64,000 nt of DNA, taken from assembly GCF_011174775.1 (NCBI RefSeq), contig NZ_JAANHS010000001.1:310001-374000 (forward strand), read 5' to 3'. Both the position numbers and the translations under genes were made by a program. This DNA comes from Rhodobacter calidifons (GTDB lineage: Bacteria; Pseudomonadota; Alphaproteobacteria; Rhodobacterales; Rhodobacteraceae). Below, piece after piece: positions 4,368-21,032 of the stretch. The notes beneath the pieces were generated by a model. It was not told the DNA's origin. It searched no databases and saw nothing but the letters and a program-made list of their open reading frames with translations. The first letter of the stretch is position 1, and each line of letters starts with the position of its first letter.

Positions 4368-5038
4368 GACCTGCCCTCCTTCGGCTCCGGCCGGGTCCGG
4401 CCGAAGAGCTTGAAATGCGCGAACGAAGTCTGCCGCGGGTCGCTGCCCCGTCGCATCGGATAGGGTTGCTCATAGCTGCGCAGCAGGCCGAACTCCGGCG
4501 CGTGGGCGGCCACCCAGTCGGAATAGCGCCGGTGGCGCACATGCCGGGCCTTGCTGGGCATGGCATCATCCGAAATGTAGATCAGGACCAGGCGCGTCGC
4601 CGCCGCGAACAGCCGCTGCATGTAATCCTCGAACACCTCGTCCTCGGTCAGGTGGTAGATCACATCCAGCGACAGCGCGAGATCGGCCTGACGCGGCGCG
4701 GCCCTGAACTCCTCCAGCGTCATGAAGGACCAGTCGGGGCGGTCCCGGAACCGTAGCGCGCAGGCGGCGACCGCGGTCGGGCTCACGTCAACGCCCAGAT
4801 AGCGCGGGCAGCGCAACAGGGAACACTGGTTGCCATCGCCGCTGCCGAACTCGACGACCGAACGCACGTCAAGCTCCTCGACAAGACCATTGATCACCTG
4901 CGCCTTGTGTTCCGCAAGACGTCCGTAGGATCCCGCTCCCGAAGTGCCACCCTGATTGTATCGCGCGCGCCAATAGTCTTCCGACCGGAATTCCGCTCCG
5001 TCATCCTTCGATCCCAACAGACGCCGGAGCAGGCGCAT
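4364..5038 (-). CDS. class I SAM-dependent methyltransferase, inserted in sdh operon
   Basis: A 224-residue protein. The SAM-binding motif I is VVEFGSGDGNQ at residues 61-71, followed by YLGVDVS (acidic end of strand 2) and DLALSLDVIYHL (motif II region). YWRARYNQGGTSGAGSYGRLAEHKA near the N-terminus is typical of methyltransferases found with glycan and polysaccharide genes. The start shares one base with the sdhA stop (TGATG), a sign of coupled translation. It is paired with the next glycosyltransferase, which suggests methylation of a sugar or glycan. The acceptor is unknown. Confidence 0.8.
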   Translation of the reverse strand: MRLLRRLLGSKDDGAEFRSEDYWRARYNQGGTSGAGSYGRLAEHKAQVINGLVEELDVRSVVEFGSGDGNQCSLLRCPRYLGVDVSPTAVAACALRFRDRPDWSFMTLEEFRAAPRQADLALSLDVIYHLTEDEVFEDYMQRLFAAATRLVLIYISDDAMPSKARHVRHRRYSDWVAAHAPEFGLLRSYEQPYPMRRGSDPRQTSFAHFKLFGRTRPEPKEGRS

Positions 5039-6843
5039 CAGAACTTCCTTTCCGCCGGGGCGATCTTGGCCAGGGGGATGCCGCCCTCGGCCTCGCTGGT
5101 CAGAGGGTCCCCGTGCACCGGGCGGTAGTCAAGCACCACCTTGTTGCCATCCACCCAGGCCAGCGAATGTTTGCGCCAGTTGACATCGTCACGGGCCGGA
5201 TAGTCCTCGTGCGCATGGGCGCCGCGGCTTTCGGTCCGGGCATGCGCCGCGTAGATCGTGGCCAGCGCGTTCGGCATCAGGTTGGTCAGCTCCAGCGTCT
5301 CCATCAGGTCGCTGTTCCAGATCAGGCTGCGGTCCGTGACATGCAGGTCGTCCATCTTGCCCGCGATCGCCGTCATCTTCTTCTCGCCCGCCGCCAGGGT
5401 CTCCTCGGCCCGGAACACCGCCGCATCGGCCTGCATCGTGCGCTGCATCTCCAGCCGCAGCTCGGCCGTCGGCACCGCCCCGTTCGCATGGCGCAGCGCG
5501 TCGAACCGGGCCAGGGCCTTGTCCACCTCGGCCTTGTTCGTTGCCGGAACGCTGGCGGAACGGTCCACCACCTGCCCCGCCCGGATCGCCGCCGCCCGAC
5601 CGAACACCACCAGGTCGATCAGGGAATTCGACCCCAGCCGGTTCGCGCCATGCACGGATGCACAGCCCGCCTCGCCCACTGCCATCAGGCCCGGGAACAC
5701 CGCATCCGGGTTGTCCTTCGTGGGGTTCAGCACCTCGCCCCAATAGTTCGTGGGGATGCCGCCCATGTTGTAATGCACCGTGGGCAGCACCGGGATCGGC
5801 TCCTTGTGCAGGTCCACGCCCGCGAAGATGCGCGCGCTCTCGGTGATCCCCGGCAGGCGCAGTTCCAGCGATTCCTTCGGCAGGTGCGACAGGTTCAGGT
5901 GGATATGGTCCTTGTTCGGCCCCACCCCCCGACCTTCCCGGATCTCGATCGTCATGCAACGCGACACATAATCCCGCGGCGCCAGGTCCTTGTAATGCGG
6001 CGCATAGCGTTCCATGAACCGCTCGCCCTCGCTGTTGGTCAGATAGCCGCCCTCGCCGCGCGCGCCTTCGGTGATGAGGCACCCCGAGCCGTAAATCCCC
6101 GTCGGGTGGAACTGCACGAACTCCATGTCCTGCAAGGGCAGCCCCGCCCGCGCCACCATCCCGCCGCCATCCCCGGTGCAGGTATGCGCCGAGGTCGCGC
6201 TGAAATAGGCCCGGCCGTAGCCGCCGGTCGCCAGCACCACCATCTTCGCGTTGAAGACATGGATCGTGCCGTCATCCAGCTTCCACGCGACGACGCCGGT
6301 GCAGGCCCCATCGGTGATGATGAGGTCGATGGCGAAATACTCGATGTAGAACTCCGCGTTGTTCTTCAGGCTCTGCCCGTACAGAGTATGCAAGATCGCA
6401 TGCCCCGTCCGGTCCGCCGCCGCGCAGGTCCGCTGCACCGGAGGCCCGTTGCCGAACTCGGTCGTGTGCCCGCCGAAGGGACGCTGATAGATCTTGCCCT
6501 CTTCGGTGCGGCTGAAGGGCACCCCGTAATGCTCCAGCTCGTAAACCGCCTTCGGGGCCTCGCGCGCCAGATACTCCATCGCGTCCGTGTCACCCAGCCA
6601 GTCCGACCCCTTCACGGTGTCGTACATGTGCCACTGCCAGTGGTCCGGCCCCATGTTGCCAAGGCTCGCCGCAATCCCCCCCTGCGCCGCCACCGTATGG
6701 CTGCGGGTCGGGAACACCTTCGTTACGCAGGCTGTGCGCAGCCCCTGCTCGGCCATGCCCAGGGTCGCGCGCAGACCGGCCCCGCCGGCCCCCACCACGA
6801 CCACGTCATATTCATGCGTCTCATACGGATAGGCGGTCATCAT
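5038..6843 (-). CDS. sdhA: succinate dehydrogenase flavoprotein subunit
   Basis: SdhA, 601 residues, oxidises succinate to fumarate and carries covalent FAD. The dinucleotide-binding motif is [13 protein letters not shown] at about residues 14-26. The histidine in [11 protein letters not shown] (H49) is the expected FAD-linkage site. [21 protein letters not shown] and [11 protein letters not shown] are complex II fingerprints. The length is normal for the family. It sits 7 bp after sdhD and its stop overlaps the methyltransferase start. Confidence 0.98.
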
Positions 6844-6850
6844 CAGATCC

Positions 6851-7222
6851 TTACAGAGCCATGCGGGCCAGGGCGAACAGCCCCGTCGCGGCGATCACCC
6901 AGGCAAGACAGGTCACGAAGATGATCAGCATCTTCCGCGCCGAGCCCCTGGCATAATCCTCGATCATCGTGGTCGCCCCCATGGCGAAATGCCGCATCCC
7001 CACGACCAGCAGCAGCGCCGTCAGGATCGCCGGGAACGGGCTGCCGAAGGTGGCGACCACCGCCTCCCGGCTTTGGCCCAGCGCGCGCCCGAAGACATAC
7101 AGCCAGACCGGCACCAGGAAGGCGAGGCCGACCGAAGAGACCGTCATCGACCAGTGATGTTCGGTCCCGTAATGGGCAGCACCCCGGCCCTCGGCCCGCT
7201 TGCGGGGGGTGATATAGCGCAT
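6851..7222 (-). CDS. sdhD: succinate dehydrogenase membrane anchor subunit
   Basis: A 123-residue protein with three hydrophobic segments (about residues 29-46, 60-82 and 99-121). H78 lies in GMRHFAMG and the EDYARG motif at 88-93 is close to the quinone site of SdhD proteins. The start is ATG at 7222, 5 nt after a GGAGG ribosome site; a GTG 15 bp upstream overlapping the sdhC stop is a weaker alternative. With SdhC it anchors complex II and binds heme b and ubiquinone. Confidence 0.93.
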
Positions 7223-7233
7223 GGCGGCCTCCC

Positions 7234-7620
7234 TCACTGCACCAGAAGAATTGTGATCACAGTCAGCACGACCGACCCGATGATGCAGGCCCAGCCCAGC
7301 TTTTCCGCCGTCGGAATGTCGAGACCCCGGCCCGCATCATAGTAAAGATGCCGCAGCCCGGCCAGGTAATGGTACCACACCGCCCACAAGGACCCGCTGA
7401 ACACCAGATCGCCGAACCAGCTCGTCGCCACCGCGTTCGCCACCGCGAAATAGCTGTCCGATGTAGCTGCCGCCAGCAGCCACCAGACCCCCAGCACCAC
7501 GCCCGCGATCAGCGCGTGCCCGGTGATCCGCGTCAGGATCGAGGTCAGCATCGGCACTTGCCAGCGATAGATCTGCAAATGCGGCGACAAAGGGCGGGCG
7601 GCCTGCTTCACGTCTGCCAT
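7234..7620 (-). CDS. sdhC: succinate dehydrogenase cytochrome b556 subunit
   Basis: A 128-residue protein with the SdhC signatures RPLSPHLQIYRW (9-20) and SILTRITGHAL (27-37), three membrane helices and HYLAGLRHLYYD (84-95), in which H91 is the likely heme ligand. It is the first gene of the sdh cluster. Upstream lie a LacI-type element (7739-7750) and two GTGATCAC palindromes (7771-7801), indicating that the operon promoter is here. Confidence 0.96.
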   Translation of the reverse strand: MADVKQAARPLSPHLQIYRWQVPMLTSILTRITGHALIAGVVLGVWWLLAAATSDSYFAVANAVATSWFGDLVFSGSLWAVWYHYLAGLRHLYYDAGRGLDIPTAEKLGWACIIGSVVLTVITILLVQ

Positions 7621-7738
7621 GGTCGGTCCTCACGTCTGGCGGCGCGGCCCCCCCCGGGGCAGCACCTGGCTATCAATCACTCTTCTGAATAGCGCGGATT
7701 TCGCCCGTGTCACGCAGCGAATGCCGCGATTGCAGCAT

Positions 7739-7750
7739 GTTGCCGCTAGC
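7739..7750. promoter_or_regulatory. LacI/CceR-like operator upstream of sdhC
   Basis: GTTGCCGCTAGC, about 120 bp upstream of the sdhC start. It matches 10 of 12 bases of GTTACCGCTAAC upstream of mdh and resembles the general LacI-family palindrome TGnTAnCGnTAnCA. CceR is a LacI-type central carbon regulator known from Rhodobacter. Assignment to CceR is inference. Confidence 0.4.
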
Positions 7751-7770
7751 GGAGCACGATTTCTGCGCTT

Positions 7771-7801
7771 TGTGATCACGCCTAGAAAATCCGTGATCAC
7801 A
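7771..7801. promoter_or_regulatory. tandem GTGATCAC operator pair upstream of sdhC
   Basis: Two exact GTGATCAC palindromes at 7772-7779 and 7793-7800, centre to centre exactly 21 bp, that is two helical turns. The outer flanks make TGTGATCACG and CGTGATCACA. The same octamer at the same 21-bp period occurs upstream of sucC. This is the pattern of a dimeric regulator binding cooperatively on one DNA face. The protein is unknown to me. Confidence 0.65.
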
Positions 7802-7830
7802 GGAAACGCCGCGCGCCGCCGCTCCGCGAC

Positions 7831-8853
7831 TCAGCGCGGCACCAGCGCCCAGTAGTCCAGGTCCAGCAGCACTTCGGGCAGATACTTGCCCTCCGGCCCC
7901 CGCAAGGCTCCCGCCGCACCCTTCGTCGCCACCAGCCGCAGCCGCAAGGCCCCAACCGAGGGCACCGGGGTCTCGGCCTTGTCCAGCACCTCCGACCAGG
8001 CCCGCACCGTATCCCCGGCAAAACAGGGGTTCGCATGGGCGCCTGCGTTCAGCGCCACGATCATCTGCGCATTGGCCAGCCCGTTGAACGACAAGGCCCG
8101 CGCCAGGCTGATCACATGCCCGCCATAGATCAGCCGCCGCCCGTCCTCGCGCTGGCCCACGTCGAAATGCACCTTCGAGGTGTTCTGCCACAGCCGCGTC
8201 GCCAGCATGTGCTCGGCTTCCTCGACCGTCACCGCATCGACATGGTCGATGACCTCGCCTACCGCGTAATCCCCCCAGCGATGCGGCTCCCCCGCCAGGT
8301 CAAAGTCATAGCGGCTGAAGTCCAGCCCCTCCGGCACCACCAGCGCCCCCGGGTCCACCACCGGCGCCAGCTCCGGCACCGCGACCGGCACCACGACCTC
8401 GCGCCGCCGCTTCCGCACCATCACCCAGCGCACGTATTCCAGCACCACGTCCCCGTGCTGGTTCAACCCCTTCGTCCGCACCCAGACGACCCCCGTCGCG
8501 CCGCTGGAGGTCTCCTTCAGCCCGATCACCTCGGACTCCGACCGCAGCGTATCCCCGGGCCAGACCGGCTTCAGCCAGCGCCCTTCGGCATAGCCCAGGT
8601 TCGCCACCGCGTTCAGCGAAACATCCGGCACCGTCTTGCCGAACACCGTGTGAAACGCCACCAGATCGTCCAGCGGGCTGGCCTTCAGCCCCACCCCCCG
8701 CGCGAACTCGTCCGAGGAATACAGGGCCCCCCGCGCCGGATAGAGCGCATGATACAGCGCCCGCTCGCCCTGACCCACCGTTCGGGGCACCGCGTGCCGG
8801 ATCACCTCGCCCAGCCGGTAATCCTCGAAGAAACGCCCCGGATTGGTCTTCAT
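7831..8853 (-). CDS. mch: mesaconyl-CoA hydratase (beta-methylmalyl-CoA dehydratase)
   Basis: A 340-residue double hot-dog (MaoC-like) protein. The N-terminal half holds GRFFEDYRLGEV and SPLDDLVAFHTVFGKTVPDVS. The second half holds HVDAVTVEEAEHMLATRLWQNTSKVHFD and IYGGHVISLARAL, typical of mesaconyl-CoA hydratases. It interconverts mesaconyl-C1-CoA and beta-methylmalyl-CoA in the ethylmalonyl-CoA pathway of acetyl-CoA assimilation. Placement next to sdh and near a malyl-CoA thioesterase matches, as I recall it, the Rhodobacter sphaeroides arrangement. The stop of the upstream DUF1737 gene overlaps its start. Confidence 0.88.
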   Translation of the reverse strand: MKTNPGRFFEDYRLGEVIRHAVPRTVGQGERALYHALYPARGALYSSDEFARGVGLKASPLDDLVAFHTVFGKTVPDVSLNAVANLGYAEGRWLKPVWPGDTLRSESEVIGLKETSSGATGVVWVRTKGLNQHGDVVLEYVRWVMVRKRRREVVVPVAVPELAPVVDPGALVVPEGLDFSRYDFDLAGEPHRWGDYAVGEVIDHVDAVTVEEAEHMLATRLWQNTSKVHFDVGQREDGRRLIYGGHVISLARALSFNGLANAQMIVALNAGAHANPCFAGDTVRAWSEVLDKAETPVPSVGALRLRLVATKGAAGALRGPEGKYLPEVLLDLDYWALVPR

Positions 8854-9053
8854 AGCTCACCCAGCTTCAGTTCGGGGTGATAGTCTCCCGCCACCTCCTT
8901 CACCACCGCCTGCCCGCAGCGCATCACGCCGTGGGCCGCATCGAAGGCGTAAGCGGGCGACCCATGCAGCTCCCACCCCTTGTTCAGGGCCGCCGTCACC
9001 TTGTGACAGAAGGCCGCCGTGTCATCCGCACTCAGGAACCGATAGAGCTTCAT
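8850..9053 (-). CDS. DUF1737-like small protein
   Basis: A 67-residue protein, MKLYRFLSADDTAAFCHKV, with a middle GWELHGSPAYAFD segment characteristic of the short DUF1737 family (a compact alpha/beta fold of unknown role). It overlaps the start of mesaconyl-CoA hydratase by 4 bp, so the two are co-translated. No catalytic residues are evident. Confidence 0.75.
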   Translation of the reverse strand: MKLYRFLSADDTAAFCHKVTAALNKGWELHGSPAYAFDAAHGVMRCGQAVVKEVAGDYHPELKLGEL

Positions 9054-9089
9054 CTTCCCAAAACCTCAGACAATTCGACCAGGATTGTC

Positions 9090-9142
9090 TTTCATCTGTC
9101 CAAAAATATCCCACGGGGGTCCGGGGGTGTGAAACCCCCGGT
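9090..9142. repeat. dispersed intergenic repeat A, copy 1
   Basis: A 53-bp element starting TTTCATCTGTCC and ending in an 8-bp stem hairpin (CCGGGGGT / ACCCCCGG, 5-nt loop). It is identical at all but one position to 26660-26712; shorter diverged copies are at 41924 and 55864 in the other orientation. It lies in the gap between the NnrU gene and the DUF1737 gene. The hairpin may stop or stabilise transcripts. Confidence 0.85.
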
Positions 9143-9148
9143 CCGACC

Positions 9149-9718
9149 TCAGCCCCAGGGCGCCACACCCAGCCAGTTGTGGATCAGCATCACCGCCCCC
9201 ATCACCACGACAGCGCCCACGACGGCCCCGATCTCCTTGCCCATCGGCGCAGGCTCCGGCACCGGCCCGCGCGGCTCGGCCCGGTTGATCAGGATCACCT
9301 CGACCACCGCCCAGGCCAGCAGCCCGCCGAACAGCACGATCGCCGCCAGATCGCCGTTCACCAGAAGATGCGCCAGCGCCCAGGTCTTCACCGCCGTCAA
9401 CTGCGGATGCCGGATGACGCGGGTGATCCGCGTCTTCATGCCGCTGGCCGCATACAGATAGAAGGCGAACAGCATCAGCAGGTTGTTCACATGCACCAGG
9501 AACCGTGGCGGGTCCCAGACAAAGACGGTCTCCACCGGCTCGATCCCCAGCCAGGCGCTGCCGCGCCAGCCGATGACCATCAGCACCACGCCGGCCAGCA
9601 CCAGCACCGCGACCAGCCCCTTGCCCGGATCGCCCATCCGCGCCCGAGACGCCGGGGCCACCCGCTTCCACAGATGCGCGCCCCACCACAGCGCCAGTCC
9701 CAGAACGATCAGTGTCAT
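9149..9718 (-). CDS. NnrU family membrane protein
   Basis: A 189-residue polytopic protein with about five hydrophobic helices (starting at residues 1, 36, 79, 118 and 165). The order of WGAHLWKR, FLVHVNNLLML, RITRVIRHPQLTAVKTWALAHLLVNGD and the final helix is that of the NnrU family. Family members occur in denitrifiers and in many alphaproteobacteria lacking denitrification; R-H-P-Q and A-H-L-x-N-G residues could bind heme as in related isoprenylcysteine-methyltransferase-like membrane proteins. The role here is unknown. Confidence 0.85.
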   Translation of the reverse strand: MTLIVLGLALWWGAHLWKRVAPASRARMGDPGKGLVAVLVLAGVVLMVIGWRGSAWLGIEPVETVFVWDPPRFLVHVNNLLMLFAFYLYAASGMKTRITRVIRHPQLTAVKTWALAHLLVNGDLAAIVLFGGLLAWAVVEVILINRAEPRGPVPEPAPMGKEIGAVVGAVVVMGAVMLIHNWLGVAPWG

Positions 9719-9754
9719 TGCTGCCCTCCATCGGTTGCGGGCGCCACACTGCCG

Positions 9755-10615
9755 TCATTCCGCCGCCGCCGCAATCGATTGCGCCGCGATCGCCTCGGCC
9801 CTGGCGATCAGCGCCTCGGCGCTGGCCACATGCAGGTTCTCGACAATCCGCCCGTCCAGCACCGCCACCCCCTCGCCCCGCGCCCGCGCCTCGGCATGGG
9901 CCGCGATCATCCGCCGGGCCAGGGCCACCTCCTCCTCGGAGGGCGCAAAGACCTCGTTGGCGATGTCCAGCTGTGCGGGATGGATCAGCGTCTTGCCGTC
10001 GAACCCCATGTCGCGGCCCTGCTCGCATTCCGCCCGCAGGCCCGCCTCGTCCTTGAAGGCGTTGAACACCCCATCGACGATCACCCGCCCTTCCGCCCGC
10101 GCCGCCAGCACGCAGGCCCCCAGCGCCGCCAGCAGCGGCAGCCGGTCGGCGCGGTGCCGCGCGCCCAGCTCCTTCGCCAGGTCGTTGGTGCCCATCACCA
10201 TCCCCTCCAGCCGGGGATGCGCCGCAATCGCGCCCGCGTTCAGGCAGCCCTTCGCCGTCTCCATCATCGCCCAAAGAGGCGCCTGCACCCGACCCGCCAC
10301 CGCGTCCAGGTCGGCCGGACCATTCACCTTCGGCAGCAGCACCGCATCCACCCCCGGATGGGCGCCGAAGGCCGCCAGATCCCCCTCGACCCAAGGGGTC
10401 CCAAGCCCGTTGACCCGCACGATCCGCGCCCGCGCGCCATAGTCGGCCCGCCGCAGGACCGCGTCCAGAAGATCCCGCGCCCGAAGCTTCTCTTCGGGCG
10501 CCACCGCGTCCTCCAGATCGAAGATGATCGCATCGGCGGCCAGATCCCGCGCCTTCTCCAGCGCCCGTTCGCGCGCGGCCGGAATATACAGGACAGAGCG
10601 ATAGGGATGCATCAC
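9755..10615 (-). CDS. mcl2: (3S)-malyl-CoA thioesterase, CitE/Mcl family
   Basis: A 286-residue TIM-barrel protein. RSVLYIPAARERALEKA, IFDLEDAVAPEEK (metal and acid residues), LPKVNG, MMETAKG and GFDGKTLIHPAQ are the CitE/HpcH-family blocks. It is shorter than Mcl1-type lyases (about 318 residues) and lies in the position I recall for Rhodobacter sphaeroides mcl2, whose product hydrolyses (S)-malyl-CoA to malate and CoA in the ethylmalonyl-CoA pathway. A citrate-lyase or malyl-CoA-lyase activity is the alternative. Start M at 10615 or 10612. Confidence 0.82.
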   Translation of the reverse strand: MMHPYRSVLYIPAARERALEKARDLAADAIIFDLEDAVAPEEKLRARDLLDAVLRRADYGARARIVRVNGLGTPWVEGDLAAFGAHPGVDAVLLPKVNGPADLDAVAGRVQAPLWAMMETAKGCLNAGAIAAHPRLEGMVMGTNDLAKELGARHRADRLPLLAALGACVLAARAEGRVIVDGVFNAFKDEAGLRAECEQGRDMGFDGKTLIHPAQLDIANEVFAPSEEEVALARRMIAAHAEARARGEGVAVLDGRIVENLHVASAEALIARAEAIAAQSIAAAAE

Positions 10616-10793
10616 GACTCACCTCTGCGCAAGATTCTTGCGCTTGAAAGCACGGATCGGACACAAACGGCAAGCCCAAATTTGCCGCAGCGCAGAAAAC
10701 CCTTGGCGCCGCAGCGCCGGAACGCTCCGTTAACCGCGCGTCAGTCCGACCCCGGCAGCCTTTCAGCAGTCCGAACCCCAGAAAGGCCCGCCC

Positions 10794-11105
10794 ATGACGC
10801 AGCAGCTCTTCGCCCTCTCCTTCGGCCTTGCCGCCGTCCTTGCCGCCAGCCAGATCGCCCATTCCGCCCCGCACTGCGACACGCGCGAACGGGTCACTGC
10901 CCTGCTTGCCGAACGCTACGGCGAAACCCGCCGCGCCGTCGGGCTGGCCGGTCAGGCCGCCGTGATGGAGCTTTTTGCCGCCGAGGCCACCGGCACCTGG
11001 TCGATCACCCTGACCTTGCCGGACGGCCGGATGTGCCTGATGGCCTCTGGCTCTGACTACGAGACGCTGACCGAAGACCTCCCGGCCAGGGGCAACCCCG
11101 CCTGA
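10794..11105 (+). CDS. small exported hypothetical protein
   Basis: A 103-residue protein with a signal peptide (hydrophobic residues 5-20, cleavage near AHSA). The mature chain has two cysteines (PHCDTRERV and GRMCLMASG) that could form a disulfide, plus TWSITLTLPDGRMCL. I do not recognise a family by name, though this pattern is common in Rhodobacterales. Its 3' end overlaps the convergent Ada-domain gene by 49 bp. Confidence 0.65.
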   Translation: MTQQLFALSFGLAAVLAASQIAHSAPHCDTRERVTALLAERYGETRRAVGLAGQAAVMELFAAEATGTWSITLTLPDGRMCLMASGSDYETLTEDLPARGNPA

Positions 11106-11314
11106 GGCCGGCACCGTTTGCAGGCGCGAAAACCCGCCGCCTCGCACTCCGCAACCGTCGCGCGGAACGCCACGTTCTTCCGCAACGGCGTCCGTGCCGG
11201 GCAGGTCATCCGGCAGAAGATCCCGGTCGTCATGACGCAGACGAACGCCTGCCCGGCAAGGCGCCCGTCCCGGGCGGCAAGCAAGGCGTAAAGCACATCG
11301 GCATCGGGCAGCAT
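11057..11314 (-). CDS. stand-alone Ada-type metal-binding domain protein
   Basis: An 85-residue protein. GQAFVCVMTTGIFCRMTCPARTP and FRACKRCRPQ reproduce the zinc-binding module of E. coli Ada (four cysteines, TTGIFCR, C-x-R-C). In Ada the first Cys repairs methylphosphotriesters and then activates transcription. Here there is no AraC helix-turn-helix and no methyltransferase domain, so the function is uncertain. The start Met at 11314 has AGGAG 7 nt upstream. It converges with the exported protein gene. Confidence 0.7.
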   Translation of the reverse strand: MLPDADVLYALLAARDGRLAGQAFVCVMTTGIFCRMTCPARTPLRKNVAFRATVAECEAAGFRACKRCRPQAGLPLAGRSSVSVS

Positions 11315-11350
11315 CGGCAAACTCCTGACCGGGCCCCGGCGCATCTCGAT

Positions 11351-11400
11351 TCCCTCCCCCCTCCGTGGGGGAGGGAGAGGGTGGGGGGCGGGCCCTCCCC
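11351..11400. repeat. G/C-rich hairpin repeat C
   Basis: An inverted repeat CCCTCCCCC...GGGGGAGGG followed by a G-rich tract. Similar elements recur at about 13625-13660, 13852-13890, 31888-31920 and 35554-35595. It is located between the TauE and Ada-domain genes. Confidence 0.6.
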
Positions 11401-11463
11401 GGCAGCATTGCATGCCCGACGACCGGACACAGCCCGGCCAGCGCCGATCCCGCAGGATCCGGG

Positions 11464-12213
11464 TCAGATCAGGCCCAGAACCCCGTCCCGGATCAGCTTC
11501 AGCGAGATCAGCAAAAGCGCCCAGGTCACGGCCTGAAAGAACAGCTTTTCCGGCATCCGCCGGACCAGCCGCACGCCCGCCAGCACCGCAACCACCGCCG
11601 GTACCGCCAGCACCGCCGCCATCTTCAGATTGCCGGGGTTCAGCTGGCCCAGCGCGTAATAGGGCACCAGCTTCACCGCATTGATGATCGCGAAGGCAAT
11701 TGTCGAGGTCCCGGCAAACACCGCCTTCGGCATCCCCAAAGGCAGGGTGTAGACCTGATAGGGCGGCGCGCCCGCGTGGCTGACGAAACTCGTGAACCCC
11801 GTCACGCCGCCCCAGAACAGGCCCGGCACCACCTCCGCCCGCTTCCGCGCGCCCCCGACCGGACGGCGCAGCAGCAGGTTCAGCGCAAAGGCCAGCCCGA
11901 TCACGCCCACCAGCAACGTCACCGCCGCCTCCGACACCATCGAGGCCGTCGCCCAGCCGATCCCGATGCCCAGGATCGCCCCCGGCACCACGATCGCCAG
12001 CACCCGCCGGTCGAACTCCCGGCGATAGGCGTAAAGCCCGAAGGCGTCCGACACCACGAAGACCGGCAACAGCATCCCCGCCGCGACGATCGGGTTCATC
12101 ACCAGCGCCATCACCGGCACCGCCAGCATGCCGACGATCGGGATTCCACCCTTGCCCAACCCTACCATCGCCGCCGCAACCACCGCCGCCAGCCAGAACC
12201 AGATATCCGCCAT
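11464..12213 (-). CDS. TauE/SafE family sulfite/anion permease
   Basis: A 249-residue integral membrane protein with about eight hydrophobic helices. GLGKGGIPIVGMLAVPVMAL near the N-terminus and VTGFTSFVSHAGAPPYQVY in the middle are the two repeats typical of TauE/SafE (DUF81) exporters. The start Met at 12213 has a GGAGGG site just upstream. It is divergent from mdh, sharing a 154-bp intergenic region. Likely substrates are sulfite, sulfoacetate or other organic anions; none can be chosen from sequence. Confidence 0.85.
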   Translation of the reverse strand: MADIWFWLAAVVAAAMVGLGKGGIPIVGMLAVPVMALVMNPIVAAGMLLPVFVVSDAFGLYAYRREFDRRVLAIVVPGAILGIGIGWATASMVSEAAVTLLVGVIGLAFALNLLLRRPVGGARKRAEVVPGLFWGGVTGFTSFVSHAGAPPYQVYTLPLGMPKAVFAGTSTIAFAIINAVKLVPYYALGQLNPGNLKMAAVLAVPAVVAVLAGVRLVRRMPEKLFFQAVTWALLLISLKLIRDGVLGLI

Positions 12214-12229
12214 GCCGCCCTCCGCTGGC

Positions 12230-12241
12230 GTTACCGCTAAC
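12230..12241. promoter_or_regulatory. LacI/CceR-like operator in TauE-mdh divergent region
   Basis: GTTACCGCTAAC, a near-complete LacI-family palindrome (reverse complement GTTAGCGGTAAC fits TGnTAnCGnTAnCA at the core). It is 127 bp upstream of mdh. Closely related sequences lie upstream of sucC and sdhC. Regulator identity is inferred. Confidence 0.45.
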
Positions 12242-12358
12242 CCCTCCACCCGGCGACCGAAAGCCGCAAAATTTCGCATACCATTGTATACCGAACCCCA
12301 TTCCAGTGCTGGACTCACGCCCGATAAGCGGCTACCCAAACCCCGATTCACCCCATAG

Positions 12359-13330
<972 letters not shown>

Positions 13331-13492
13331 TCTGTAGGTCGGACTTCAGACCGGCTCCCAAGGGTGCGCCTCGGCGCGCCCGTTTTCATGCCCGGCATCC
13401 TCCGGCATCTCGACCAGCCGCCCCCGGATGCGCCGCGACCGGATCGACCCACCCGACCCGCAGATCCGGCCCTCATCGAAGACTTGCCCCAC

Positions 13493-13583
13493 AGGCCCGG
13501 TGCGGCTCCCGATGCCCTCGGAACACCCTGCTGCGCCCTGCCTGCCCTTGCCCTTTCCCAAATACTCCCGCCGGAGGCATCCC
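13493..13583. repeat. 90-bp module with repeat B, copy 1
   Basis: It begins GGCCCGGTGCGGC, contains GCCCTCGGAA and ends with CCAAATACTCCCGCCGGAGG at 13558-13577. It aligns along its length with 13703-13795. The repeat B tail alone recurs at 31806-31825 and 34270-34289. Confidence 0.75.
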
Positions 13584-13702
13584 TTCGACGCGCCAGGCGC
13601 ACCAGATGGCCGCCAGGAAGACCCGGACGGCAAATCCCCTCCCCCGGTGGGGAGGGGAAGCTCGCGGAGAGGCCGCAATGCGGGTCCGCTGATGCCCGGT
13701 GC

Positions 13703-13795
13703 AGGGCCCGGTGCGGCGCCCGGCGCCCTCGGAAAACCCTGGCGCGTCGTCCCCGCACTTGCTCTTTTCCCAAATACTCCCGCCGGAGGCATCCT
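13703..13795. repeat. 90-bp module with repeat B, copy 2
   Basis: Second copy of the module, with the same order of blocks (GGCCCGGTGCGGC, GCCCTCGGAA, repeat B at 13770-13789) and substitutions between them. It lies 210 bp from copy 1 in direct orientation. Confidence 0.75.
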
Positions 13796-14051
13796 CCCCC
13801 GGGGCCCAGGCGCACCCCCTGACCGCCGGAACCAACCGCACGGCAAGGCGCGTCCCCCCCCCCCCGGTGGGGAGGGGAGGGGGGTGGGAGGCGCCCGTCG
13901 AAATCCTAACAGCCGGTAAATGCCCTCGCCCAAACCCTTGATTTCCCTAGCCCCATTGACCGCGCCGCGCGCGGCGCGCGACAAGCCCTCTTGCCCCCCA
14001 CCGCCAAATCCGGCATCCCCAGGGGCCAGACCACCCCCGAAGGGACACCCC

Positions 14052-14222
14052 ATGGACTACTCGAAATCCGGCAACCCCAAGGGCGCCCGCAGCACCCTTC
14101 GCGGCCCCGACCACGGCCAGAAAGGCGCGCCCAGGCAGGTCAAACCCCCGCGCGAGACCCAGGAGCAGCTCCTCGCCCGCATGAAGGCCGCCGCCGCCGC
14201 GAAGAAGGACCCCAGGGCCTGA
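14052..14222 (+). CDS. small basic hydrophilic protein
   Basis: A 56-residue protein, MDYSKSGNPKGARS..., rich in Lys, Arg, Gly and Gln with a C-terminal helix (QEQLLARMKAAAAAKK). The opening DYSKxGNPK resembles short conserved proteins I associate with Rhodobacterales, of unknown function. Its TGA stop overlaps, as CTGA, the apparent start of the following methyltransferase. Confidence 0.6.
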   Translation: MDYSKSGNPKGARSTLRGPDHGQKGAPRQVKPPRETQEQLLARMKAAAAAKKDPRA

Positions 14223-14866
14223 GGCTCCCCTCCCCCTACCTCGCCCCCGGCTTCTATGACGAGGCCATCGCAAGGGGCCGCCACCGCGACATCGTCGGCG
14301 GCCGCTGGGACGAAACCGCCCGCGTCCAGATGCAGGCCCTCCTCAGCCAGGGCATGACCCCCGACGACCACCTCCTCGACATCGGCTGCGGCTGCCTGCG
14401 CCTCGGCCACAAGGCCGTGCCATACCTCAAACCCGGCCACTACTGGGGCACCGACGCCTCCCTCGCCCTGATGCGCCACGGGCGCCTCACCGAACTCCCC
14501 GACCCGTCGCGCCTCCCCGAAGACCACCTGATCGAGGACGCCCGTTTCGCCTTCCCCGGCATTCCCGACACGATCACACTGGCCATCGCCTTCGGCGTCT
14601 TCACCCACCTCCCCCACACCGCCCTGCAAACCGCGCTCCAGAACCTCCGCCCCTTCCCGAACCTCCGCGCGACCCTCTTCACCACCTTCCTCTCCGACGC
14701 CCCCGGCCCGACGCGCCAGCCCGACGGCGTCGTCACCCACCCCGACCGACCGCCCTACCACCTCCCCGAAGCCGCTGTCCGCGACACCATCGCCGCCGCA
14801 GGCTTCACCCCGATCCGCCTGCCCACGCTCCTCCCCCGCGGCCAGGTCCTCTGGTCCGCCACCTGA
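14219..14866 (+). CDS. class I SAM-dependent methyltransferase, apparent CTG start
   Basis: About 215 residues. Conserved blocks are GFYDEAIARGRHRDIVGGRWDETARVQMQALL, then LLDIGCGCLRLGHKAVPYL (SAM motif I) and HYWGTDAS (acidic strand-2 end). There is no ATG, GTG or TTG in frame between 13994 and the conserved GFYDEA block. The CTG at 14219 overlaps the preceding TGA stop exactly as ATGA overlaps do elsewhere in this window. The alternative start is ATG at 13991, which would read out of frame through the whole small gene and give a non-homologous basic extension. Substrate unknown. Confidence 0.72.
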   Translation: MRLPSPYLAPGFYDEAIARGRHRDIVGGRWDETARVQMQALLSQGMTPDDHLLDIGCGCLRLGHKAVPYLKPGHYWGTDASLALMRHGRLTELPDPSRLPEDHLIEDARFAFPGIPDTITLAIAFGVFTHLPHTALQTALQNLRPFPNLRATLFTTFLSDAPGPTRQPDGVVTHPDRPPYHLPEAAVRDTIAAAGFTPIRLPTLLPRGQVLWSAT

Positions 14867-14931
14867 GGGCTTTCCCCACCTTGCGCCCCGCCCCGTGCAG
14901 CCCCACACTCCCCCGAAAAGGAGCCCGCCCC

Positions 14932-16119
14932 ATGCGCACCCTCGCCCTCGCCCTCGCCCTCCTCCTCGCCACGCCCGCGACAGCCGAGACACTCAGCCAG
15001 GAAATCGCCCGCACCGGCCTTGCCGCGACGGAATCCCGCCTCGCCGCCCTCGCCTCGCCCACCAGAGAGGACCTCTTTGCGCTGGCAGGCCTCCATTTCC
15101 TCGGCGGCATCGAACAGGCGCTGCAACTGCGCTGGCAGACCGGCGTCAAGGCCGACTGGTCGGAACTGCCCATCCTCCGCCTGCCGATCCCGGAAAACCC
15201 CAACGCCATCCCCTTCCAGGCCGCCGATTTCACCGCGCTGATCCGCAACCTCGACGCCGACATGGAGGCCTCCCGCGCGGCGCTCGAAAGACTCGGCGAC
15301 AAGCCCTTCGCGCTGGACATCCGCATCTCTGACCTCTGGTTCGACATCAATTCGAACGGCACCCGCGAACCCGGCGAAAGCCTGGCCGAGGTCACCGGCA
15401 TGGCGCTTGGCGGCGGGCGCGGCATGGGTGTCGCGGTCGAGGACCCCGTCATCACCTTCGACACCGCCGATGCCGCCTGGCTGGCCGCCTATACCCATTT
15501 CCTCTCCGGCTTCGCCTCCACCGCGCTCGCCTACGACCCCGAACCCGCGATCCAGCGCGTCATTGACTCGTCGAAGCAGATCTACGCCCTGTGGGGCACC
15601 ACGCCCCCGAACAACGCGATGGACATGATGTTCGGCCGCCAGGTCGACCGCGCCGCGATGGTTCTGAACGCCCTCTCGAACACCCCGGACAAGGCCCTCG
15701 CCCGGGACGCCTACGACCACTTCCTGTCGATGATCCGGGAGAACCGCCGCTTCTGGTCGCTCGTCACGCTGGAAACCGACAACACCGGCGAATGGGTCCC
15801 GAACGATGCCCAGACCTCCGGCCTTGGCCTGAGGATGCCCCCCGGCACCGGCGCGCGCTGGCAGGCCGTGCTGGCCGACGCCGAAAAGGCTCTGAAGGGT
15901 GAACTTCTGATCCCGCACTGGCGCTTCGGGGCCGAGGCCGGGATCAACCTGAAAAAGGCTTTCGAGAACCCGCCCGCCGTGGACCTGATCACCTGGATCC
16001 AGGGCGAGGGCCTGCTGCCCTATGCCGAGAAAGGCCCGCTGATGTCCGGCCAGGCCTGGCGCGACTTCCAGGACATCGTCCAGGGCGATGCGATGCTGTT
16101 TGCCGTCTTCCTGAACTGA
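14932..16119 (+). CDS. exported conserved hypothetical protein with EF-hand-like loop
   Basis: A 395-residue protein with a signal peptide (MRTLALALALLLATPATAE, cleavage after about residue 18). The mature chain is alpha-helical and acidic. WFDINSNGTREPGESL near residue 142 has a Dx[DN]xNGxxxxGE pattern that could bind calcium. Full length continues through a conserved-looking C-terminus (LITWIQGEGLLPY...WRDFQDIVQGDA). A GGAG site precedes the chosen start. The function is unknown. Confidence 0.75.
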   Translation: MRTLALALALLLATPATAETLSQEIARTGLAATESRLAALASPTREDLFALAGLHFLGGIEQALQLRWQTGVKADWSELPILRLPIPENPNAIPFQAADFTALIRNLDADMEASRAALERLGDKPFALDIRISDLWFDINSNGTREPGESLAEVTGMALGGGRGMGVAVEDPVITFDTADAAWLAAYTHFLSGFASTALAYDPEPAIQRVIDSSKQIYALWGTTPPNNAMDMMFGRQVDRAAMVLNALSNTPDKALARDAYDHFLSMIRENRRFWSLVTLETDNTGEWVPNDAQTSGLGLRMPPGTGARWQAVLADAEKALKGELLIPHWRFGAEAGINLKKAFENPPAVDLITWIQGEGLLPYAEKGPLMSGQAWRDFQDIVQGDAMLFAVFLN

Positions 16120-16126
16120 TCGACCG

Positions 16127-16178
16127 GGCGCCGATTTCCTGCGGAAATCGGACCGGAATTCGCACGAATTCCGGCGCC
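16127..16178. terminator. nested double hairpin between convergent genes
   Basis: Two perfect 9-bp hairpins (16131-16151 with a 3-nt loop; 16153-16174 with a 4-nt loop) enclosed by GGCGCC at 16127-16132 and 16173-16178. It lies exactly between the convergent exported-protein and aminotransferase genes, so it is probably a bidirectional terminator, without a clear U tract. Confidence 0.6.
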
Positions 16179-17503
16179 TAGGCCACCCCGTTCAGCACCG
16201 TCTCCAGCGTAGCGACCAGCTTGTCCGCGATCTCGTCCAGCTCGCCATCCGTAGCATTGAACGGCGGCGCCAGGATCACCGTATCCCCCGCCACCCCGTC
16301 CGCATTCCCGCCCGAGGGATAGCAGATCAGCCCCCGCCGCAGGCCTTCCGCCCGGATGCGCCCGTTCACCCCCAGGCTTGCCTCGAACGGAGCCTTCGTC
16401 GCCGGGTCCGCCACCACTTCCACCCCGATGAAATACCCCCGGCCCCGCACGTCGCCCACCTGCGGCAGATGCCCCAGCCGCGCCCGCAATTCCGCCTGCC
16501 AGCGCGGCCCCTTGTCGCGTATGCGCGCAAGAAGCCCCTCTTCCGCCACGATCTTCTGCACCGCCACTCCGGCCGCAAGACAGGCGGTATGCCCGGTATA
16601 GGTGTGCCCGGTCAGCGGGCCCCCATGCCCCGCCGCCATCACCTCCGCGATCTCGCGGCTGTAGATTGCAGCCCCCAGCGGCAGGTATCCCCCCGACAGC
16701 GACTTCGCCACGGTGATGATGTCCGCCGTGATCCCGTCCTCTTCCGACGCCCGCCAGACCCCGGTCCGGCCCGATCCGCACATCACCTCGTCGCAGATCA
16801 CCAGCACCCCGTGCCGGCGGCAGACCTCGGCCACCGCCTTCGCGTAACCCTCGGGCGCAGGCAAGGCCCCGCCCGCAGCCCCCACCACCGGCTCGAAGAT
16901 GAAGCCCGCCACCGTCTCCGGCCCAAGGCGCAGGATCTCTGCCTCCAGCTCGGCCGCCAGATGGGCAACCAGTCCCTCGCGGCTCACCCCCTCGGGCAGC
17001 CGGTAGGCATTAGCCGCACTCACCCGCCCGACCACCGGCAAGGCCCCGGCAAAGGCGCGCTGCCGCTCCTCGAACCCCGACAGCGCCGTCGCCATCAGCG
17101 TATTGCCGTGCCAGGACCGCTTGCGCGCAATGAACTTCACCCGCGCCGGATCGCCCCGGTCATAATGGTATTGCAGCGCGATCTTCACGGCACTTTCCAC
17201 CGCCTCGGACCCCGAGGTCGTGTAGACCATCTCCGCCAGCCCGGTAGAGCGGCGCAGCATGTCGCTCATCTCCTCCAGCGGATCGCTAGAGAACAGATAG
17301 CGGTAGCCATAGGCCACCTTCTCCATCTGCGCCGCCACCGCCGCGTTCACGCGCGGGTCGCCATGCCCGATGGAAAACACCGCCGGCCCGCCCGAGCCGT
17401 CGACGTACTGCCGCCCCTCCACATCCCACAGATAGACCCCGCGGCCGTGGCTGATCTTCGGCAACCGGTCTTGCGTGATGTCGTTGGCGCTTGGGCGTGG
17501 CAT
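16178..17503 (-). CDS. class III PLP-dependent aminotransferase
   Basis: A 441-residue fold-type I enzyme. GRGVYLWDVEGRQYVDGSGGPAV, TTSGSEAVESAVKIAL, KRSWHGNTL, the cofactor Asp in VLVICDEVMCGSGRTG and the Schiff-base Lys in ITVAKSLSGGYLPLGA are all present. The start at 17503 follows GGAGG by 5 nt; Met at 17515 is an alternative. The family transfers omega-amino groups (beta-alanine, GABA, diamines, taurine) to pyruvate or 2-oxoglutarate; the specific donor cannot be read. It stands alone, divergent from sucC. Confidence 0.9.
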   Translation of the reverse strand: MPRPSANDITQDRLPKISHGRGVYLWDVEGRQYVDGSGGPAVFSIGHGDPRVNAAVAAQMEKVAYGYRYLFSSDPLEEMSDMLRRSTGLAEMVYTTSGSEAVESAVKIALQYHYDRGDPARVKFIARKRSWHGNTLMATALSGFEERQRAFAGALPVVGRVSAANAYRLPEGVSREGLVAHLAAELEAEILRLGPETVAGFIFEPVVGAAGGALPAPEGYAKAVAEVCRRHGVLVICDEVMCGSGRTGVWRASEEDGITADIITVAKSLSGGYLPLGAAIYSREIAEVMAAGHGGPLTGHTYTGHTACLAAGVAVQKIVAEEGLLARIRDKGPRWQAELRARLGHLPQVGDVRGRGYFIGVEVVADPATKAPFEASLGVNGRIRAEGLRRGLICYPSGGNADGVAGDTVILAPPFNATDGELDEIADKLVATLETVLNGVA

Positions 17504-17594
17504 GTGGGCCTCCATCTCTCGGCCCCAGCCTTCGCAAGCGCCCCGATCCTTGTCAATCTGACCAGAGCCAGGGTGATTCGCGGCCGCTTCTGGC

Positions 17595-17606
17595 GTTACC
17601 GCCACC
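17595..17606. promoter_or_regulatory. LacI/CceR-like element upstream of sucC
   Basis: GTTACCGCCACC, preceded by TGGC as at the mdh site (both read GGCGTTACCGC). It lies 2 bp from the first GTGATCAC palindrome. It is probably a weaker half-conserved site for the same LacI-type protein. Confidence 0.35.
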
Positions 17607-17607
17607 A

Positions 17608-17659
17608 TGTGATCACAGCTTTCCATCCTGTGATCACGCATTTCAGGCCCGTGATCACA
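17608..17659. promoter_or_regulatory. triple GTGATCAC operator array upstream of sucC
   Basis: Exact GTGATCAC octamers at 17609-17616, 17630-17637 and 17651-17658, each centre exactly 21 bp from the next. The spacers are unrelated, so this is not simple tandem duplication. The array ends 110 bp before the sucC ATG. The same octamer and period occur upstream of sdhC, implying a common regulator. Confidence 0.7.
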
Positions 17660-17768
17660 TCCATCATTTTCCCGGCATTTCCCCCGCATTACAGGCATTT
17701 GCCGTTTGGAACCGGCCCCGACCCGTGCCAGAACGCCGCTGACACTCCAGGCCGAGAAGAGGCGCCCG

Positions 17769-18962
17769 ATGAACATCCACGAATACCAGGCCAAGGACCT
17801 TCTGCGCAGCTACGGCATCCCGGTCTCTGACGGCCGCGTCGTCCTGAAGGCCGAAGACGCCAAGACCGCCGCGGGCGAACTGGACGGCCCGCTCTGGGTG
17901 GTGAAGGCCCAGATCCACGCGGGCGGCCGCGGCAAGGGCCATTTCAAGGAACCCGAGGCCGGGGAAAAGGGCGGCGTCCGCCTTGCCCGCTCGGTCGGCG
18001 AGGCCGCCGAATTCGCCCGTCAGATGCTGGGCCGCACGCTTGTCACCGTCCAGACCGGCCCCGCCGGCAAGCAGGTCAACCGCATTTACATCGAGGACGG
18101 CTCGGACATCGAGCGCGAATTCTACCTCGCCCTCCTGATCGACCGTCAGACCAGCCGCATCTCCATCGTCGCCTCGACCGAAGGCGGGATGAGCATCGAG
18201 GACGTCGCCCACGACACGCCGGAAAAGATCCACACCTTCACCATCGACCCCGCCACGGGCATCCAGGACTTCCACGGCCGCCGCGTGGCCTTTGCGCTGG
18301 GGCTGACCGGAGCGCAGGTCAAGCAATGCGTCCAGATCGTGAAGAAACTCTACCAGCTGTTCCTCGACAAGGACATGGACATGCTGGAGATCAACCCCTT
18401 CTGCGTGCTGAAGGACGGCACCCTGCGCCTTCTTGACGCCAAGATGGGCTTTGATGGCAACGCGATCTACCGCCACCCCGACATCGCCGCGCTCCGCGAC
18501 GAGACCGAGGAGGACCCCAAGGAGCTCGCCGCCTCGAAGTTCGACCTGAACTACATCGCGCTGGATGGCGAGATCGGCTGCATGGTCAACGGCGCGGGCC
18601 TCGCGATGGCCACGATGGACATCATCAAGCTTTACGGCGCCGAGCCCGCCAACTTCCTCGACGTCGGCGGTGGCGCGACCAAGGAAAAGGTGACCGAGGC
18701 CTTCAAGATCATCACCTCGGACCCGAACGTCAAAGGCATCCTCGTCAACATCTTCGGCGGCATCATGCGCTGCGACATCATCGCCGAGGGCGTGATCGCG
18801 GCGGTGAAGGAGGTGGGCCTCACGGTCCCGCTGGTCGTCCGGCTGGAGGGCACCAACGTCGAGCTTGGCAAGAAGATCATCAACGACTCCGGTCTGAACG
18901 TCATCGCCGCCGACGACCTGTCGGATGCGGCCCAGAAGATCGTCAAAGCGGTGAAAGGCTGA
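17769..18962 (+). CDS. sucC: succinyl-CoA synthetase beta subunit (ADP-forming type)
   Basis: A 397-residue ATP-grasp protein starting [19 protein letters not shown]. It carries [14 protein letters not shown] (nucleotide binding), EINPFCV and [11 protein letters not shown], and the C-terminal CoA-ligase domain [15 protein letters not shown] and [11 protein letters not shown]. With SucD it converts succinyl-CoA to succinate with formation of ATP. It is the first gene of the suc cluster, 5 bp before sucD. Confidence 0.98.
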
Positions 18963-18967
18963 AGCCC

Positions 18968-19852
18968 ATGTCCGTCCTCGTGAACAAATCCACCCGCGTC
19001 ATCTGCCAGGGCTTCACCGGCTCGCAGGGCACCTTCCACTCCGAACAGGCCATCGCCTATGGCACACAGATGGTCGGCGGCGTGACCCCCGGCAAGGGCG
19101 GCACCGAACACCTCGGCCTGCCCGTCTTCGACAGCGTGCACGAAGCCGTCGCCAGGACCGGGGCCAACGCCACCGCGATCTACGTCCCGCCGCCCTTCGC
19201 CGCCGACTCGATCCTCGAGGCCATCGACGCCGAAATCCCGCTGATCGTCTGCATCACCGAAGGCATCCCGGTCCTCGACATGATGAAGGTCAAGCGCGCC
19301 CTCATCAACTCGAAGTCCCGCCTGATCGGCCCGAACTGCCCCGGCGTCCTGACCCCCGGCGAATGCAAGATCGGCATCATGCCCGGTTCCATCTTCTCCA
19401 AGGGCTCGGTCGGCGTCGTCTCCCGCTCGGGCACGCTCACCTATGAGGCCGTGAAGCAGACCACCGACGTGGGCCTCGGCCAGACCACGGCCGTCGGCAT
19501 CGGCGGCGACCCGATCAAGGGGACCGAGCACATCGACGTGCTGGAGATGTTCCTCGCCGACCCCGACACCCATTCGATCATCATGATCGGCGAGATCGGC
19601 GGCTCGGCGGAAGAAGACGCCGCCCAGTTCCTCGCCGACGAAAGGAAGAAGGGCCGCTGGAAGCCCACCGCCGGTTTCATCGCCGGCCGCACCGCCCCCC
19701 CCGGCCGCCGCATGGGCCATGCGGGCGCCATCGTCGCGGGTGGCAAGGGCGACGCGGGGTCCAAGATCGAGGCGATGAAATCCGCCGGGATCGTGGTGGC
19801 CGACAGCCCGGCGGGCCTCGGTGAGGCCGTGCTGAAGGCGATCAAGGGCTGA
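18968..19852 (+). CDS. sucD: succinyl-CoA synthetase alpha subunit
   Basis: A 294-residue protein. [12 protein letters not shown] (CoA-binding Rossmann), [29 protein letters not shown] and the active-site loop [17 protein letters not shown], with H251 as the phosphorylated histidine, are all present. It pairs with SucC. The next gene is not sucA but a glycosyltransferase starting 2 bp after the stop. Confidence 0.98.
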
Positions 19853-19854
19853 CC

Positions 19855-21024
19855 ATGGGCCAGGGCGCAGACATCGGCGCGCGACCGTCCGAACGCCTGA
19901 CCTGGGCGCTCTGCGTCTCGACCTGCGACCGGCCCGACATGCTGGAACTCTGCGTTCGCCACGCGCTGGGCTCCACCCGGATGCCGTCCGAGATCGTGAT
20001 CTGCGATGCCAGCGCCGGCTGGGAAGGGCACCACGCCAGGATCGCCCCGTTGGCCGAAGCGGCCGGCGTGCCGCTGCATTACCTTCCCGCGCCGAAGAAA
20101 TCGCTGCCCGCCCAGCGCAACCACGCGATCGGCGCGGCGCGGGCGGATATCCTGTTCCTGATCGACGACGACGCCTTCCTGCACCCGGACTGCGCCGAGG
20201 TGATCATGCAGGTCTACGAAACCGACCGCGACCGGCGGATCGCGGCCGTGTCGGCCTCTGACGGCCCGCTGCCCGAGGCGACGCCTCTTGCCGGGGGCAA
20301 GGGCGGCGCGTCCAGGGCGCCCCTGACCGAACGGCTGCTCAGGTCGTCGTTCCTGATGCGGTTCCTCTGGACCGAGGTCCTTCTGATGTCGGCCGAACGC
20401 ATGTTCATCCCCTATGACGGCACATGGCACAAGCCGACCGAGGAAGAGGTCGCGGCCTATTCCTCCAGCGCCTTGTTCCCGGTCTCCCTGATCTCGGGGT
20501 ATCGCCTGACTGTCCGCCGTTCAATCGCGCTGGACGAACCCTTCGACGGCGACCTGCTGGCCTATGCCTCTGCCGAGGATCTGGACGCGACCTACCGCTT
20601 TTCGCGCCACGGCTGGAACGTGGTGGCGGTCGAGGGCCGGATCTACCATCACGAGGCCCTGCCGGGCCGTCTCAAGCGGCAGCAGTCCTCACGGCTTTCG
20701 GTGCTGAACATCGCCTTCTTCCTGCGCAAGCACGCAGGCAGGCCGCTGCGGCGGTCGGTTGACTTCGGCGTGATGGTGGCGCGGCGCCTCCTTGCCGAAG
20801 TGCTGAAGGACGGGCTCTCGCGGCGCTGGCTGTTTCCGCAGCTGCGCGGGGTTGCCGCGGCGATCCCGGACAGCATCCGCATCCTGCTCCATGACCGGGC
20901 GACGCTTGCCCCCTTCTACGACAGCATCCAGCGCAAGGTGCTGGGCCTGCCGCCCGCTGCGGCCACCCTGACGGCCAGGGCACGATCCGTGCCGCCCCGA
21001 TCCGATTTCACTCCTCGCGCATGA
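19855..21024 (+). CDS. family 2-like glycosyltransferase inserted in suc operon
   Basis: A 389-residue protein. The GT-A core starts WALCVSTCDRPDMLELCVRHAL, with LPAQRNHAIGAARADILFLIDDDAFLHPD giving the DXD site at D104-D106, and a later EDLDATYRFSRHGWNVV block of the acceptor domain. The C-terminus is basic and may contact the membrane. It sits 2 bp after sucD and its TGA overlaps an ATG 12 bp before the sucA start, so it is embedded in the TCA transcript. The sugar and acceptor are unknown; a surface polysaccharide role is likely. Confidence 0.8.
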   Translation: MGQGADIGARPSERLTWALCVSTCDRPDMLELCVRHALGSTRMPSEIVICDASAGWEGHHARIAPLAEAAGVPLHYLPAPKKSLPAQRNHAIGAARADILFLIDDDAFLHPDCAEVIMQVYETDRDRRIAAVSASDGPLPEATPLAGGKGGASRAPLTERLLRSSFLMRFLWTEVLLMSAERMFIPYDGTWHKPTEEEVAAYSSSALFPVSLISGYRLTVRRSIALDEPFDGDLLAYASAEDLDATYRFSRHGWNVVAVEGRIYHHEALPGRLKRQQSSRLSVLNIAFFLRKHAGRPLRRSVDFGVMVARRLLAEVLKDGLSRRWLFPQLRGVAAAIPDSIRILLHDRATLAPFYDSIQRKVLGLPPAAATLTARARSVPPRSDFTPRA

Positions 21025-21032
21025 GGCCCAAG

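Follow-up and report, generated by a model that had tools for sequence, protein, structure and literature searches.

Which regulator reads the evenly spaced copies of the octamer GTGATCAC that precede the sdh and suc operons of Rhodobacter calidifons, and how could it act from there? Both arrays lie within a stretch of 64,000 nucleotides (NZ_JAANHS010000001.1, positions 310,001 to 374,000; hereafter the window), and an earlier note on this DNA, which had described them, could name no known factor for the site. Judging from sequence comparison, the arrays are very probably operators of AkgR, an activator of tricarboxylic acid (TCA) cycle operons with GntR and FCD domains, acting by the mechanism proposed below. 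The sites, their pitch, their targets, their conservation, the ortholog and the quantised distance to the promoter come from this analysis; the link between motif and AkgR, as well as its role as an activator, come from the literature.

An exact-match scan of the window returned GTGATCAC at 7253, 7772, 7793, 17609, 17630 and 17651, where 100 dinucleotide shuffles gave a mean of 0.93 copies per window and 5 at the most. The promoter-proximal predicted AkgR site of sdhC occupies 7772..7779 and the distal one 7793..7800, 21 base pairs (bp) from it; before sucC, the most distal (third), middle and promoter-proximal predicted sites are found at 17609..17616, 17630..17637 and 17651..17658. All are exact matches, and the sdhC pair is conserved in the family. 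The arrays end about 151 bp before the start codon of sdhC and about 110 bp before that of sucC; an operator of the AkgR type stands upstream of target genes in this genome. The positions and the centre spacing of 21 bp in both arrays agree exactly with what the earlier note had given, which supports its placing of the sites on one face of the DNA. The only other copy, at 7253, is unpaired and lies within sdhC, as had also been reported. The three spacers in the window are mutually unrelated, as that note had said; among relatives, the middle of the spacer is enriched in A/T, weakly at sdhC and more strongly at sucC. Across the genome (3,623,430 bases), the only instances of GTGATCAC-N13-GTGATCAC are the three adjacent pairs within these two arrays, and the reversed-sequence control yielded 0. 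Single octamers are at background, with 46 copies in 3.62 Mb, 41 of which are outside the arrays and do not exceed the expectation from the window shuffles. Thus, the signal is the pairing and not the octamer itself.

In a family set of 295 genomes from 294 genera, a pair (two GTGATCAC within 0-30 bp) was detected in 267 genomes (239 of the 260 good-quality ones), with one genome of 295 in the reversed control. The possibility that relatives lack such pairs upstream of sdh and suc can therefore be set aside. Among the 75 pairs listed, from 37 genomes, 65 are spaced by 21 bp, five by 20 bp and five otherwise. We fetched 40 regions, picked because they bear pairs and holding 68 of the 75; all 70 arrays in these regions and the window precede sdhC (33), sucC (36) or sucA (1). 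In G177 (L062:6933-6961), sucA follows the array directly, without an intervening SucC match. The scan of relatives for 21-bp pairs that had been proposed thus leads back to the same genes, and the view that one regulator is common to complex II and the 2-oxoglutarate branch is supported. An array normally consists of two sites; here sucC has a third exact one, a further 21 bp upstream, as do the relatives L175 and L180. The seven listed pairs beyond the 68 lie at sucC (G033), at akgR (G187), before fumC (G042:C16), apparently within coding sequence (G044:C27 and G044:C57, 18 bp), at a spacing of 31 bp (G042:C12) and in G092:C23 (27 bp), where no query gene was found nearby. The fumC pair is spaced by 21 bp (L286:2294-2322) and lies 124 bp before the start codon of the gene, which was identified by the equivalog model TIGR00979 and encodes the next enzyme of the TCA cycle. 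It is worth mentioning that G265 carries ten pairs within 30 bp in a genome of 2.6 Mb, where two are usual. In a class-wide sample, the pair was present in 29 of 385 genomes, five from the own family; the other 24 show scattered spacing, with a 13-base spacer in G440 and G495 (G/C-rich in the latter) and a 14-base spacer in G308, G597 and G669. The array arrangement is therefore largely a trait of the own family.

AkgR, reportedly RSP_0981 of R. sphaeroides (Imam et al. 2015), offers itself as the factor. In the available part of PMC6365646, GTGATCAC is found among AkgR binding sites and AkgR is called an activator. The available part of PMC4344238 gives the GntR regulator RSP_0981 as predicted to control sucCD (RSP_0967-6), sdh (RSP_0974-6) and 2-oxoglutarate dehydrogenase (RSP_0965-62). 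The statement that no known factor could be named is therefore not borne out, since the octamer has been reported for AkgR and the target operons agree, and in all likelihood the window represents a further member of the AkgR regulon.

A candidate gene for AkgR is present in this genome (G000), outside the window. Of its ten FCD-domain matches, FCD_L012 (C33:16051-16695, minus strand) encodes 215 amino acids with a GntR helix-turn-helix and an FCD domain, and shares 81-82% identity with the GntR protein next to sdhB in G051, a genome that we take to be R. sphaeroides from its gene order and assembly rather than from a name. This qualifies FCD_L012 as an AkgR ortholog, the comparison having been made to the G051 protein in place of the deposited RSP_0981; that AkgR itself has an FCD domain would follow from the G051 ortholog. 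The order in G051 is sucB-sucA-sucD-sucC-[pair]-mdh-mch-[pair]-sdhC-sdhD-sdhA-sdhB-FCD_L012 ortholog; both operons have their pair at 21 bp, and the arrangement agrees with the RSP numbers in PMC4344238. The named akgR loci are the best 80 of 462 confirmed ones, with no R. sphaeroides record among them; in the flank examined, lpd of the suc operon was found in 35, sdhB in five and neither in 40. In 16 of these 80 loci, the octamer precedes the first aligned residue of AkgR by 16-51 bp, and in G187 it is present twice at this place, with 13 bp between the copies. Self-control of AkgR, if it occurs, would be evidenced in relatives only.

The claim of a dedicated regulator stands in part. In this genome the two arrays are the only ones, yet one relative has the fumC pair, and the octamer occurs at the start of akgR in the 16 loci just mentioned. 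CceR, which we presume to be RSP_1663, has to be considered as well. As far as the available parts of the two papers go, sdh of R. sphaeroides is placed under RSP_1663 by locus tag in PMC4344238 and within the CceR regulon in PMC11323563, so AkgR need not act alone.

How such arrays could reach a promoter is best seen at sdhC. A -35-like GTGACA (7708..7713, minus strand) lies 58 bp beyond the proximal site, and a -10-like TATTCA (7686..7691, minus strand) follows 16 bp after it. Downstream of the array, GTGAC[AT] was found in 28 of 33 sdhC promoters, in 24 of them 57-60 bp after the proximal site; the remaining four have gaps of 48, 69, 78 and 79, and the promoter with a gap of 69 (L068) has a second copy at 15. 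A pattern search of the 295 genomes, covering gaps of 48-78 only, matched 171 genomes; among the 150 matches listed, 125 were at 57-61 (the gene being unchecked for most). The 25 others were all inspected, 20 of them newly fetched and five fetched before, and 19 are at sdhC, each from a different genus, with gaps of 48 (7), 68-71 (10) and 78 (2). Counted from 58.7, all 19 deviate from a whole number of turns by no more than 2 bp, where 31% of positions are expected to do so (naive p 2e-10, with rows taken as independent). The gap of 79 in L046 is beyond the range searched, yet it fits whole turns as well. Left out of the 19 were G192 (71 bp, no gene call) and five matches at sucC arrays, whose gaps of 55, 66, 66, 77 and 77 are outside the 2-bp tolerance and which are probably due to chance. 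In 15 of the 16 newly fetched sdhC promoters, TA begins the hexamer 16 bp after GTGAC[AT].

Could this fixed distance reflect common descent instead of a need for the same face? The main class of 57-61 bp could well be inherited. However, the 19 checked departures, from different genera, are all displaced by whole turns (to 48, 68-71 or 78), never by a half turn, and the interval between -35 and start codon ranges from 55 to 108 bp, unlike the gap between array and -35. We regard common descent as an unlikely explanation of the spacing. The exceptions at whole turns fit activation from one helical face, and comparison of genomes points to a fixed-face upstream activator site of the class I type at sdhC only. 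At sucC, one of four sampling runs placed a motif containing CgTTT at a common offset (31-32), roughly 45 bp past the array, in 27 of 36 promoters, and no clear -10 accompanies it in these 36 promoters; in the window, CGTTT at 17703..17707 (plus strand) is a tentative part of the core promoter. Tentatively, the sucC array would sit about one turn nearer to its promoter than the sdhC array.

We propose that dimers of AkgR occupy the palindromic GTGATCAC sites, two at sdhC and three at sucC, which follow one another at intervals of 21 bp on one helix face. Assuming a start 7 bp after the -10, the sdhC sites would be centred at about -97 and -118, and those of sucC perhaps one turn closer. From there, AkgR would assist RNA polymerase at a weak -35 (GTGAC[AT]) and -10 (TANNNN), presumably by a contact that tolerates changes in distance by whole turns and not by half turns; the alpha C-terminal domain of the polymerase may be the partner. 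Cooperative binding of the dimers is plausible given the conserved pitch of 20-21 bp, and would explain its rigidity. In its most specific form, towards which the comparisons incline us slightly, AkgR would be a remote same-face GntR activator acting as a two-dimer unit across a gap to the -35 of 48, about 59, about 69 or 78 bp (proximal site at about -87 to -117), whose operators and gene are lost together.

Joint loss can be followed across the family set, for which orthologs were accepted at E below 1e-50 and the lists read by eye. AkgR and the pair are both present in 261 genomes and both missing from 21, with AkgR only in 7 and the pair only in 6 (odds ratio 130). Of the AkgR-only genomes, G040 and G291 carry at sucC a pair with one mismatch, G147 has a best SucC relative of 52%, G166 a partial SucC match of 53%, and in G122 and G155 the SucC search was without match. 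Two genomes whose AkgR-like genes are broken seem to retain a decayed octamer of the array close to where it would be expected. G109, with AkgR-like pieces (58-59%, 42%) in different frames (C56:33057-33643), has GTGATCAA at a distance of 107 bp from sucC, upstream of the gene; in G157, with a 43% AkgR-like stretch containing five stops (C5:11685-12301), GTGATAAC lies 130 bp upstream of sucC.

Perhaps a different GntR/FCD regulator, or a member of another family, binds the octamer, and AkgR is a mere neighbour. This would suit a genome with ten FCD matches and the six genomes with pairs but no clear AkgR; moreover, PS417_07240 of Pseudomonas simiae is also a proposed binder of GTGATCAC, according to the available part of PMC6365646, so that the motif is not unique to AkgR. 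Yet when the ten own FCD proteins were compared with the fetched regions, only FCD_L012 had close relatives (63-70%), which in three of the regions are some 9 kb away from the arrays, and the octamer stands at the gene start of its orthologs in some of the named loci. Co-occurrence with the pair is also tighter for AkgR, missing from 6 of the 267 pair-bearing genomes, than for FCD_L009, the sole control compared, missing from 49. A binder other than AkgR appears improbable.

Several observations nevertheless count against AkgR as the factor or against its proposed action. Its identity with RSP_0981 is presumed and its motif known at second hand, and G051 is assigned to R. sphaeroides on grounds other than a name. 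No GTGATCAC was found within the 1.5-kb flanks of any of the ten FCD genes of this genome, its own akgR included. In the spacing test, the phase centre and the period were set after the main cluster had been seen. G281, with a 50% AkgR relative, has no pair at sucC. A pair without clear AkgR is found in G096, G256, G264, G019 and G273, which are 73-93% complete, and in G114, rated 100% complete. The control regulator FCD_L009 also correlates with the pair (neither in 22, regulator only in 6, pair only in 49, both in 218; odds ratio 16, phylogeny confounding the comparison), and gene loss in outlying lineages thus explains part of the co-occurrence. Finally, a SucC tree of 66 rows, whose bootstrap had not settled, gave three well-supported independent contrasts, which are not significant and in which the control regulator behaves alike.

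AkgR could also bind and repress, or the sucC array could mainly serve the divergent gene. In fact, a class III aminotransferase gene (16178-17503, minus strand) starts at 17503, 105 bp from the sucC array, and an octamer at the start of akgR in relatives would suit self-repression. AkgR is, however, called an activator in the available part of PMC6365646, and the placing of the sdhC arrays, at gaps of about 48-78 bp ahead of the -35 and in helical phase with it, is that of activator sites. Across the sucC array in L144 and L148 lies mdh, and since it reads towards sucC, these two loci do not need a divergent promoter. Either version is very unlikely. The consensuses of CRP and FNR differ from the abutting half-sites of TGTGATCACA, and a CRP- or FNR-type site was rejected solely because these half-sites abut without a spacer. 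As the octamer contains GATC, methylation was also considered; it would not explain the pairing.

The surroundings of the arrays are as follows. On the minus strand, sdhC (Sdh_cyt, 7234..7620), sdhA (5038..6843) and sdhB (2190..2969) were identified by Pfam, and sdhD (6851..7237) was named without a profile scan, from tblastn matches adjoining sdhC in relatives. On the plus strand, sucC (17769..18962), sucD (18968..19852) and sucA for the E1 component of 2-oxoglutarate dehydrogenase (21021..24005) were identified by Pfam, and sucB (24022..25239) and lpd (26742..28130) by eye and synteny, without a profile scan. The AkgR targets sdhCDA, sucCD and sucAB-lpd are thus all present, sucAB-lpd lying downstream of sucCD on what may be a single transcript. 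Two genes, by eye methyltransferase-like and glycosyltransferase-like, stand between sdhA and sdhB (3618-5038), and an inserted gene, glycosyltransferase-like by eye, between sucD and sucA (19855-21024). In the window, about 4 kb of other sequence, including the divergent aminotransferase gene, part mdh from the sucC array (region 13331-17608), which mdh directly adjoins in L144 and L148. Between array and -35 of sdhC, a second motif near TGCGCCAAAAAACCGCGC was noticed by eye in about 13 of 40 promoters (L047, L055, L060, L268, L283 and others), often 19 bp before the -35 and at 11.1 bits against about 7 in shuffles; 7714-7771 of the window has no clear copy. It may be the site of another regulator or an A-tract bend.

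As to its identity, this is an ordinary case, a real and strongly conserved operator system with a known factor, in which an unnamed motif can now be read as the binding site of an activator with a name. What is new is that genome comparison points to whole-turn spacing between array and -35, although its absence from print is not established. Our literature search found no paper on the 21-bp spacing, the primary AkgR paper (Imam et al. 2015) being outside its reach, and the matches listed for GTGATCAC include no title on an sdh/suc regulon. The motif is mentioned in connection with AkgR in the available part of PMC6365646 and not in those of PMC11323563, PMC4419725 and PMC7471390, nor is GTGATCAC in the main text of PMC4494728. 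Transcription start sites of R. sphaeroides have been mapped in PMC7471390. The conservation indicates that in most of the family a single switch governs both complex II and succinyl-CoA synthetase/2-oxoglutarate dehydrogenase. The reach of activators to RNA polymerase has mostly been studied with CRP, and the whole-turn steps provide natural spacing variants for how a GntR activator does so. If this is true, the genomes of the family amount to a natural helical-phasing experiment on sdhC. The fumC pair of one genome, an apparent extension, suggests how the AkgR regulon can grow.

The closest known system is the AkgR (RSP_0981) regulon of R. sphaeroides, with the same octamer, an activator of the GntR type and sucCD, sdh and 2-oxoglutarate dehydrogenase as targets, known at second hand from partly available sources; here, in contrast, the sucC array is triple, and akgR lies on another contig, away from both sdh and suc. 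Among solved structures, the best sequence match to FCD_L012 is E. coli McbR (PDB 4p9f, E 5e-22), a different regulator, and its closest NCBIfam model is PRK11414, a GntR regulator (88.8 bits against a cut-off of 225). PS417_07240 of P. simiae is gntR-like and 32% identical to AkgR, but according to the available part of PMC6365646 its proposed target is a deoxyribonate catabolic cluster, with one site described. Several GntR-type dimers side by side, binding cooperatively, are known from E. coli NanR on its (GGTATA)3 operator, as described in the available part of PMC8012715; NanR, however, is a repressor whose cooperativity needs an N-terminal extension, whereas AkgR activates, according to the literature, and its palindromes lie two turns apart, a different geometry.

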